Below are positions 43,135-46,120 of a stretch of DNA of 64,000 bases, one piece after another (position 1 is the stretch's first letter; each line of letters starts with the position of its first letter). The DNA comes from Candidatus Uhrbacteria bacterium (lineage in GTDB: Bacteria; Patescibacteriota; Patescibacteriia; 2-12-FULL-60-25). Made by a program: the position numbers and the translations under genes. Below the pieces are notes generated by a model that was given only the letters and a program-made list of their open reading frames with translations, was not told the origin of the DNA and did not search any database. The stretch lies in contig JAHBAS020000006.1 in NCBI GenBank assembly GCA_018499965.2, forward strand, positions 1 through 64,000, in the 5' to 3' direction.

Positions 43135-43343
43135 TGATTCGTACGGATGTGCGTGAACAACGAGTCTGCGGTATAGGCGCCCGTTCGAATGTTCGTCGCT
43201 TTTATGAGAAGCGATGACGCGAAGTTGTGGTTGTGCCAAGCCTGGCATCTCGTCTTCCGTTTCACTGCATACGATTATTTTTTCTCGGGTTTTTGAAATG
43301 TCCTGAAATGAGGATGTTGGCCCATTGTTCGTTTGTCTCTCGG

Positions 43344-43371
43344 GGACCGTAAACCACGTGGTTTACGGTCC
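43344..43371. other. 28-nt perfect palindrome
   Basis: ggaccgtaaaccac|gtggtttacggtcc followed by tcttctatttt. Confidence 0.85.
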
Positions 43372-43393
43372 TCTTCTATTTTAGGAATAGGTA

Positions 43394-43422
43394 TCAAAAA
43401 AACCGCCTTTCGGCGATTTTTC
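43394..43422 (-). terminator. intrinsic terminator for the initiator tRNA
   Basis: Minus strand aaaaatcgccg-aaa-ggcggttttttt. Confidence 0.75.
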
Positions 43423-43425
43423 TTT

Positions 43426-43502
43426 TGGTTGCGGGAACCGGATTTGAACCGGTGACCTCCAGGTTATGGGCCTGGCGAGCTGCCTGGCTGCTCTATCCCG
43501 CG
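43426..43502 (-). tRNA. initiator tRNA-fMet(CAU)
   Basis: CGCGGGAUAGAGCAGCCAGGCAGCUCGCCAGGCCCAUAACCUGGAGGUCACCGGUUCAAAUCCGGUUCCCGCAACCA; C1xA72 mismatch, A11-U24, encoded CCA. Confidence 0.95.
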
Positions 43503-43507
43503 AGAGG

Positions 43508-43536
43508 ATACTACTGAATTTCGGCATATTTGTCAA
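43508..43536 (-). promoter_or_regulatory. candidate promoter for initiator tRNA
   Basis: Minus strand TTGACA-17 nt-TAGTAT. Confidence 0.6.
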
Positions 43537-43572: not shown

Positions 43573-45900
43573 ATGCTACCATTATTTTATATGTTTATGC
43601 CTTTTCGTGTGCCGAGGGTTCTTCGGAGGGTGTTCGGAACGATCATCGGAATCGCTGTTCTTGCGATGAGTAGCTTCGTCCTGTATCCGGAGTCGCTTTT
43701 TGCAGCTTCATCGTCTTGTTCGCTGACAACGGGTGGAGCTTATCGAACGGCATCCGTCACAACGGTGTACGTGATCACGTCCGATTGCCAGAAACGTCCT
43801 ATTTTCAATCCGGACGTTTATTTCTCTTACTACCAAGATTGGAGTCCGGTGAAGTTCATCGAACAATCCGCGCTTGATCGCGTTCCGGATCATGCGCTTC
43901 GATTCATGCCTTGGGGTCCGCGTCGAACGTTCCAGAACGGATCGTTGATCAAAACCACGGATGATCCGCATGTCTATCTCGTGGAAGATGGGAAGATCTA
44001 TCCGTTCGGCGGCGAAGATGCGTTTAAGGCATTTGGTTTTACGTTTGACCAGGTGGAAGACGTGGCCGAAGACGTGATGAAGAAGTTCCAGAAACAGTCG
44101 CAAGACATCCAGGGATTGGATCAGGTTCCGGCATCACTCGTTTTCAAGTATTCGAATGCCCCGGCGGTCTACGTATTGGTAAGTGAGTCGGGCGTATTGA
44201 AAAAACAGCATGTCACTTCCATGGAATCCTTGCGAAGCCTCGGACGCGCCGATCGCATCGCGGTTCTGCCTATATCAAAGACATTCCCGGATGGCGGCAC
44301 GGCATCGCCGCCCGCGAATCAGGGATCCGCAGATGACGCAGCGGAACTTGCGAGCGCGGATATTACGATCACGGTTGATCCTGCAAAGACCAAGGCGATT
44401 TCGCCGTATATCTACGGAATCAACTTCAACCATGATGTTACGGATGCTCCATCAGGACTTACGTTGAATCGATACGGAGGAAATCGATGGACGGCATACA
44501 ACTGGGAGAATAATGCGTCCAATGCAGGAAGCGATTGGAATTATTCAAGCGATAGCTATCTCGGCGGGGGAGAGACGCCTGCAGAAGCGGTACGCTCCGG
44601 CATCGCGGGCGATCAGTCGCGTCATCAAGCGAGCTTGGTCACGTTCCAGCTTCAAGGATACGTGTCTGCGGACAAAGACGGTTCGGTTGATGCGAACAAG
44701 GGTGATCTCGCAGATCGGTTCAAGAAAGTCGTTTTCAAGAAAGGCTCTGCGTTTTCATTAACGCCGAGCACGTCTGACGCGAACGTGTACATGGATGAAT
44801 TCGCCTGGGCGTTGAACCAAAAACAGTCCGGCATTTTCACGACGAATGCCTCATATCCAACGTTCGTGAGTTTGGATAATGAGCCGGAATTGTGGAATAG
44901 CACGCATTCCGAAATCCAGGGGACGGGCATGGCCACTTCAGGCGATTACATCGCAAAAACGATCGGCCTTACTAAGGCATTAAAAGATCAATTCCCGGAA
45001 ATGGTGATTTTCGGTCCAGTACATTACGGCTTCCTCGGCATGTATAATTTCCAGGATGATAAGACGGAATCGTACTCAAACGATTATTGGTTCACGGACA
45101 AATATCTTTCTGAATTAAAAAAGGCATCCGATGCCTACGGCAAACGTTTGCTTGATGTCTATGACTTCCATTGGTATTCCGAGGCGCAAAGCAGCGACGG
45201 ATCTCGCGTATCCGGATTAACCGGTTCCAGCCTCACGGCGGATCAGGTACAAGCGATCGTGCAGAGTCCGCGTAGCCTTTGGGATCCGACGTACACGGAA
45301 AAATCGTGGATTACGCAGTGGATGACGAATGGACCGATCAATATCCTTGGAAAGTTGCAGGATAAAATCAACAAGATTTGGCCTGGTACGAAGATCGCGA
45401 TCACGGAGTACGAACACGGGGGAGATAATCACGTTGCCGGAGCTATTGCGCAAGCGGATGTGCTCGGAATTTTTGGAAGCCAGGGAGTCTTTGCCGGCAC
45501 CTGGTGGCCACCGTACGGGACGTATCCGTACACCGTCGGAGCCTTCCGTGCCTATCGAGGATTCGATGGCGGAAGCGCAAATTTCGGTGACGTATCCCTC
45601 CAGGCGTCATCCAGCGATATCGAAGATGTTTCCGCATACGCAAGTACGGATAGCCAGAAATCCGGACGAACGGTTTTCGTGGTCATCAACCGATCAACAG
45701 CAACGAAGAAGGTTGCGCTAAGCGGTCAGTCGCTTTCCGGTACGGCTTCCATCTATCGCATCACGGCATCGTCTGGCGCATCTCAAATCAAGGCTGGAAA
45801 GCCGGTTTCTCCGGTATTTGTGAGCAACATGTCCGTAAGCGGTAAAGTCATGGTTGTAGAGGTACCAGCCTTGAGCGTAACCACGATTGAGGTCAAATAG
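43573..45900 (+). CDS. secreted GH44-like glycoside hydrolase with N-terminal repeat region
   Basis: SPYIYGINFNHD, LNRYGGNRWTAYNWENN, SLDNEPELWNSTH, VYDFHWYSEA, KIAITEYEHGGDNHV. Confidence 0.85.
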   Translation: MLPLFYMFMPFRVPRVLRRVFGTIIGIAVLAMSSFVLYPESLFAASSSCSLTTGGAYRTASVTTVYVITSDCQKRPIFNPDVYFSYYQDWSPVKFIEQSALDRVPDHALRFMPWGPRRTFQNGSLIKTTDDPHVYLVEDGKIYPFGGEDAFKAFGFTFDQVEDVAEDVMKKFQKQSQDIQGLDQVPASLVFKYSNAPAVYVLVSESGVLKKQHVTSMESLRSLGRADRIAVLPISKTFPDGGTASPPANQGSADDAAELASADITITVDPAKTKAISPYIYGINFNHDVTDAPSGLTLNRYGGNRWTAYNWENNASNAGSDWNYSSDSYLGGGETPAEAVRSGIAGDQSRHQASLVTFQLQGYVSADKDGSVDANKGDLADRFKKVVFKKGSAFSLTPSTSDANVYMDEFAWALNQKQSGIFTTNASYPTFVSLDNEPELWNSTHSEIQGTGMATSGDYIAKTIGLTKALKDQFPEMVIFGPVHYGFLGMYNFQDDKTESYSNDYWFTDKYLSELKKASDAYGKRLLDVYDFHWYSEAQSSDGSRVSGLTGSSLTADQVQAIVQSPRSLWDPTYTEKSWITQWMTNGPINILGKLQDKINKIWPGTKIAITEYEHGGDNHVAGAIAQADVLGIFGSQGVFAGTWWPPYGTYPYTVGAFRAYRGFDGGSANFGDVSLQASSSDIEDVSAYASTDSQKSGRTVFVVINRSTATKKVALSGQSLSGTASIYRITASSGASQIKAGKPVSPVFVSNMSVSGKVMVVEVPALSVTTIEVK

Positions 45901-46043: not shown

Positions 46044-46120
46044 GCCGGGGTAGCTCAGTTGGTTAGAGCGTGGGACTCATAAGCCCGAGGTCGGCGGTTC
46101 AAATCCGCCCCCCGGTACCA
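46044..46120 (+). tRNA. tRNA with CAU anticodon (elongator Met or Ile2)
   Basis: GCCGGGGUAGCUCAGUUGGUUAGAGCGUGGGACUCAUAAGCCCGAGGUCGGCGGUUCAAAUCCGCCCCCCGGUACCA; D and T arms intact; encoded CCA. Confidence 0.88.

Follow-up and report, generated by a model that had tools for sequence, protein, structure and literature searches.

The 64,000-nt stretch of DNA analyzed here, which we call the window, comes from a Candidatus Uhrbacteria bacterium (positions 1 to 64,000 of contig JAHBAS020000006.1) and contains an initiator tRNA gene with C at position 33 and an A-U pair at 29-41. The locus raises the question of whether these bases are an oddity of one gene, a sign that the initiation machinery has changed with them, or a variation that initiator tRNAs tolerate. 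The features on which the analysis rests are as follows.

43426..43502, minus strand: initiator tRNA gene (tRNA-fMet, anticodon CAU), 77 nt, intact, CCA encoded
43469, minus strand: C33; the genome's 41 other tRNAs have U33
43473, minus strand: A29, partner U41; the E. coli equivalent is G29-C41
43461, minus strand: U41, partner of A29
43468-43466, minus strand: anticodon CAT, coordinates checked by script
43508..43536, minus strand: sigma-70-like promoter (TTGACA, 17-nt spacer, TAGTAT), separated by 5 nt from the 5′ end of the tRNA
43396..43419, minus strand: terminator-like hairpin AAATCGCC-GAAA-GGCGGTTT followed by a T run, read by eye and absent from the scan's list
46044..46120, plus strand: elongator tRNA-Met (CAU) with U33, called by ARAGORN, the within-genome control

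ARAGORN and Rfam (RF00005, 57.2 bits) agree on a minus-strand tRNA at 43426-43502. Its acceptor reads C1 G2 C3 ... C71 A72 A73 CCA, which leaves C1xA72 without a Watson-Crick pair at 1-72, and both G2-C71 and C3-G70 are there. The D stem is GAGC/GCUC (A11-U24), and the anticodon arm is CCAGG-CC-CAU-AA-CCUGG, in which 30-40 and 31-39 are G-C and 29-41 is A-U, so the third G-C pair is absent. The stems of the cloverleaf are recovered on folding (z = -3.3 versus shuffles), and a promoter scan of a 401-nt region found one promoter versus 0.2 expected in shuffles. The initiator identity given in the original prediction is therefore borne out by C1xA72, A11-U24, and CAU in an intact 77-nt gene. E. 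coli tRNA-fMet (metY, NC_000913) shares C1xA72, A11-U24, G30-C40, G31-C39, C32, and CAU-AA with the window tRNA, but the latter has C33 for U33, A29-U41 for G29-C41, and C27-G43 for U27-A43, and also differs by A7-U66 and A9. Around the gene, a 14-pair inverted repeat at 43342-43373, lying 53 bp beyond the 3′ end of the tRNA, is terminator-like on the plus strand, and the divergent neighbor at 43573-45900 (plus strand) encodes a 775-aa protein with a glycoside hydrolase family 44 domain (Pfam PF12891).

The window genome (1.11 Mb, 46 contigs, 94.4% complete) gave 43 Rfam tRNA matches and 42 tRNAs by ARAGORN. Two of the latter carry CAT, the initiator and the elongator Met listed above, and the initiator is the only one of the 42 without U33. 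The original prediction had named another fMet gene as a point to check, and no second initiator was found by Rfam and ARAGORN in this 94.4%-complete genome. Because the same genome has no detectable 16S, tRNA-Asp, tRNA-Thr(TGT), or tRNA-Ile(CAT), that absence is not strict. Each matched relative, nearly closed assemblies included, has a single long initiator match by BLAST, with extra matches being fragments of 35 nt or less. The window tRNA is thus probably the sole initiator of a Patescibacteria cell, as judged from these gene censuses. A Met-tRNA formyltransferase is encoded at G000:C4:4342-5256 (275.3 bits, above the TIGR00460 cut-off). Elsewhere in the tRNA set, the tRNA-like gene L022 (G000:C15:55289-55361) is called tRNA-Ser(AGA) but is of doubtful identity, as it has C1-G72, lacks a long variable arm, and does not encode CCA.

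The survey of related initiators that had been proposed was run by BLAST against 57 genomes, the window's own included, of which 49 matched, and the best match of all 49 was read. Position 33 is C in 40 of these 49 initiators and U in 9; C33 occurs with A29-U41 in 33 of the 49 and with G29-C41 in 7. Since both changes are found together in 33 of 49 initiators, the two bases are not read errors, and C33 and A29-U41 were real as first described. For the class, to which genomes named Uhrbacteria, Magasanikbacteria, and Paceibacter belong, we used a pattern whose only fixed elements are the D stem GAGC/GCTC, CATAA, and two G bases further on; it matched 109 of 153 genomes. A member of the window genome's own family (G032) is a named Patescibacteria bin. 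C33 alone was found in 73 of the matched genomes, U33 alone in 35, and both in 1, which places C33 in 74 of 110 class initiators. The earlier picture of an odd single case does not hold, as C33 is the majority among matched class genomes and recurs in other phyla. The genome with both states (G528, same class) has one C33 and one U33 match with D arms of different length, from either a second gene or bin contamination. A GAGC/GCTC-type initiator was not found in 44 of the 153 class genomes or in 165 of 379 phylum genomes, which may have initiators with a different D arm or with an interrupted gene.

Across the 379 phylum genomes, a stricter C33 pattern matched 29 and a pattern allowing any base at 33 matched 214. 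U33 with A29-U41 is common elsewhere in the phylum among the matches listed, so position 33 and pair 29-41 are separable traits. Inside the class, A29-U41 accompanies 52 of 74 C33 initiators versus 6 of 36 U33 initiators (Fisher p = 1.4e-7, uncorrected for ancestry), and by these counts the two may be coupled there. Both C33 and U33 occur inside families f1 and f185 of the class and, among the matches listed for the phylum, inside families f23 and f24.

The pairs of the anticodon stem vary unequally. Pair 30-40 is G-C in all 110 class initiators, and 31-39 is G-C in 98, G-U in 11, and A-U in 1, whereas 29-41 is A-U in 58, G-C in 38, and U-A in 14. The named-genome scan for C33 initiators gave at least 116 stretches, 80 of them listed; a strict fixed-register check of the 118 pattern hits in these loci left 100 intact cloverleaves and 18 that were not, of which 5 lie at contig edges and 13 are outside the register, many because their variable loop differs in length or a single T-stem pair is weak. 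Among the 100 intact C33 initiators from that scan (at least 116 stretches), G-C is found at 30-40 in 100 and at 31-39 in 99, with 29-41 being A-U in 55, G-C in 35, and U-A in 10. According to PMC11497404, A1339 makes a type I contact with pair 30-40 and G1338 a type II contact with 29-41 via the 2′-OH of C41, and invariance of 30-40 with variation of 29-41 fits these contacts as described there. A review describes the three G-C pairs as highly conserved in all domains (PMC7949028). However, with A29-U41 in 58 of 110 class initiators and in four U33 genes of an Ensifer strain, the third G-C pair is typical rather than a defining hallmark, and the original prediction's three conserved G-C pairs need qualifying at 29-41. 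As a separate observation on the acceptor, 1-72 in the 100 intact C33 initiators (scan of at least 116 stretches) is CxA in 48, CxU in 14, AxA in 13, UxA in 8, CxC in 8, UxU in 6, and other in 3; variants are seen, for example, in L056, L065, L147, and L125, and U1-A72 would be a true pair.

Besides Patescibacteria, C33 was found, among the matches listed, in Weissella, Leuconostoc, Convivina, Fructilactobacillus, and Erysipelotrichaceae; in Phycisphaerae and Sedimentisphaerales (Planctomycetota), Elusimicrobia, and Omnitrophota; and in Saccharibacteria, Dehalococcoidia, Ensifer, and bins labeled Pacearchaeota. All initiator-like genes were sought in 20 of the scanned genomes, and C33 was the sole type found in Weissella confusa, W. 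muntiaci, and W. minor (2 of 2 genes each), Leuconostoc inhae (1 of 1), and Convivina intestini (1 of 1). The near-universal U33 of the original prediction is thus not supported for bacterial initiators, given C33 in 74 of 110 class initiators and in cultured Weissella and Leuconostoc. In the Lactobacillaceae, the family of W. confusa, 82 of 101 genomes matched, and by reading the result rows we counted 20 with C33, 61 with U33, and 1 mixed. The Weissella, Leuconostoc, and Convivina initiators share C33 with the window tRNA at a distance of phyla but, unlike it, keep G29-C41; both changes recur in three other Lactobacillaceae genomes (G585, G619, and G649), where C33 with A29-U41 is the only initiator found. 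Fructilactobacillus lindneri (L175) carries one U33 and one C33 initiator gene, separated by about 600 bp. Four initiator-like genes of Ensifer sp. Root278 have A29-U41 like the window tRNA but U33, and the same strain has two odd initiator-like genes close together, one of them C33 (L177, G430:C34:170232-171181). Three loci labeled Pacearchaeota or archaeon (L137, L143, and L187) have C33 initiators with apparently A1-U72. The presence of both states at 33 within f1, f185, f23, f24, and Lactobacillaceae implies several independent changes, and from these sequences we conclude that C33 is a widespread, repeatedly evolved initiator variant. A partial literature search found no paper on C33 in bacterial initiators, which does not establish priority.

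The elongator comparison took all distinct tRNAs in the fetched loci, which were chosen for C33 initiators, with the E. coli loci left out. Initiators in these loci are 128 C33 to 10 U33, and all other tRNAs are 394 U33 to 6 C33, so genomes with C33 initiators keep U33 in their elongators. The six non-initiator C33 tRNAs comprise two diverged initiators (L070 and L089) and four on one contig (L131). That contig, from an actinomycete bin, has several elongators with C33 (for Ala, Val, and Gln, plus a CAT tRNA) and may be a phage-type tRNA cluster.

The explanation that we consider probable is relaxed constraint: an initiator, as a P-site-only tRNA, escapes the constraints on U33 and on pair 29-41. 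The sequences lead us to infer this cause, and likewise the charging, formylation, and use of the tRNA. The chief role of U33 is in decoding at the A site. The window tRNA would reach the P site by way of formyl-Met and IF2, where the 30S head would grip it as in E. coli. Positions 33 and 29-41 would have drifted, neither being strictly needed for initiation. Because U33 matters mainly in A-site decoding and an initiator never visits the A site, initiators would tolerate a change of U33 to C, whereas elongators would hardly ever do so. Because G1338 touches 29-41 mainly through the 2′-OH of residue 41, A-U or U-A would serve there, and pair 30-40, read by A1339, would remain G-C. A review ties the U-turn to A-site acceptance (PMC11231383). 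Relaxed constraint on a P-site-only tRNA would account for the near-confinement of C33 to initiators, its repeated appearance, and the unchanged partners described below. Against it stands the dominance of C33 in the class, an outcome not necessarily expected from drift alone.

That dominance is what selection might produce if C33 marks the initiator as P-site-only and a poor A-site decoder, converging on the C33 initiators of animals. C33 is the majority among matched genomes of a whole class and is nearly limited to initiators, as such a marker would be. Metazoan initiation differs, however, having A1-U72 in the initiator and no formylation. The likeness of the window tRNA to the metazoan cytosolic initiator tRNA-Met lies in C33, which a eukaryote survey notes in initiator tRNA-Met (PMC9023262). 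Mixed states within families and the two differing initiators of F. lindneri look like tolerance rather than a selected marker, and no correlated change is seen in uS9 or 16S. We regard selection for such a marker as distinctly unlikely.

A further proposal, of a kind already made for phage tRNAs, is that C33 shields the initiator against VapC and other nucleases that attack the anticodon loop. Titles cited in PMC10264068 report cleavage of initiator tRNA by VapC, that paper describes anticodon-loop changes in phage tRNAs, and the only C33 elongators that we met cluster on the one contig L131. However, the tRNA-fMet cut named in PMC10264068 falls within the anticodon itself, and a class-wide spread would need persistent nuclease pressure. 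We consider shielding very improbable.

The original prediction was that the initiation machinery has co-adapted to C33 and the A29-U41 pair. Both positions are indeed places where the tRNA touches the 30S head and uS9, as described in PMC7550191 and PMC11497404; the former reports that in E. coli Arg130 of uS9 is stacked on U33 and also holds phosphates of the backbone. We examined 30 Patescibacteria genomes, 16 with C33 and 14 with U33, of which G065 and G162 count as U33 by inference, since they match the any-base-33 pattern and not the C33 pattern. The uS9 C-terminus is Lys-Arg in all 29 tails read, in C33 and U33 genomes alike (G033, whose uS9 is cut off, is left out), so no compensating change is seen in the S9 tail. 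16S was found in 24 of the 30 genomes, the window's own not among them; with one set of fragments (G235) left out and one sequence (G021) lacking coverage of 1338, G1338 and A1339 are intact in 22 of 22 readable sequences from relatives, and no compensating change appears at these two bases either. A790, G926, and C1400 are unchanged in every readable sequence from relatives. Fmt was matched in 29 of 30 genomes and IF3 in 28 of 30, and the window genome has both. By the start caller of this analysis, the ATG share of starts is 0.893 with C33 versus 0.879 with U33 in Patescibacteria and 0.910 versus 0.888 in Lactobacillaceae. We therefore see no co-adaptation in the presence of Fmt and IF3, in start codons, in the 16S P-site bases, or in the tail of uS9, and with the last three alike in C33 and U33 relatives we consider co-adaptation still less probable than nuclease shielding. 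That the gene is a pseudogene, a misassembly, or a tRNA-like element, as a draft genome of 46 contigs might allow, has a negligible chance and is ruled out in practice by the intact cloverleaf, the terminator-like hairpin and promoter that flank it, the single long copy in each matched relative, and identical bases conserved in tens of genomes.

C33 initiators also bear on why bacterial genes have an excess of A at CDS position 4, which one proposal attributes to pairing with initiator U33 (PMC9841429) and another to proofing against frameshifts (PMC5850271). We compared A4 with the first base of later codons in ATG genes, using a start caller that gave 37 of 38 starts right when checked on E. 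coli; group sizes are unequal. In Lactobacillaceae the A ratio is x1.59 with C33 (12 genomes, 640 genes) versus x1.63 with U33 (7 genomes, 269 genes), and in Patescibacteria it is x1.47 with C33 (7 genomes including the window's, 335 genes) versus x1.20 with U33 (6 genomes, 320 genes). When the Lactobacillaceae C33 set grew from 324 to 640 genes, its ratio went from 1.79 to 1.59. The G4 ratio is below 1 in all four ATG-gene groups. Raw A4 share in Lactobacillaceae is 0.447 with C33 versus 0.517 with U33 (p = 0.058; p = 0.047 in the Shine-Dalgarno subset), and the G4 ratio is 0.86 versus 0.78 (p = 0.083 by genome). The lower raw A4 and higher G4 with C33 go slightly in the direction predicted by pairing, which may have a small effect. 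Because the excess persists in C33 lineages, it does not depend on U33, and A4-U33 pairing as its cause is not supported.

A broader reading, which we think unlikely though somewhat less so than the selected marker, would make U33 a rule for elongators in the A site. Initiators of some DPANN archaea and of several bacterial lineages (Patescibacteria, lactic acid bacteria, Planctomycetota, Elusimicrobia, and Omnitrophota) would have moved convergently to C33, perhaps selected to avoid the A site as in animals, and the A4 excess could not rest on A4-U33 pairing. Apart from that reading, claims that U33 and the three G-C pairs are near-universal need narrowing, with 30-40 constant and 33 and 29-41 lineage-variable. 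The cultured C33 species (Weissella, Leuconostoc, and Convivina), F. lindneri with both states, and their U33 relatives form a natural experiment in which three roles of U33 can be tested directly: in initiation, in keeping the initiator out of elongation, and in the A-at-position-4 rule. Position 4 also shows a different bias in one genome, G111 (L389-L391), where T and not A is enriched, to 0.447 of 47 ATG genes (x2.28), the strongest T enrichment among the genomes sampled.
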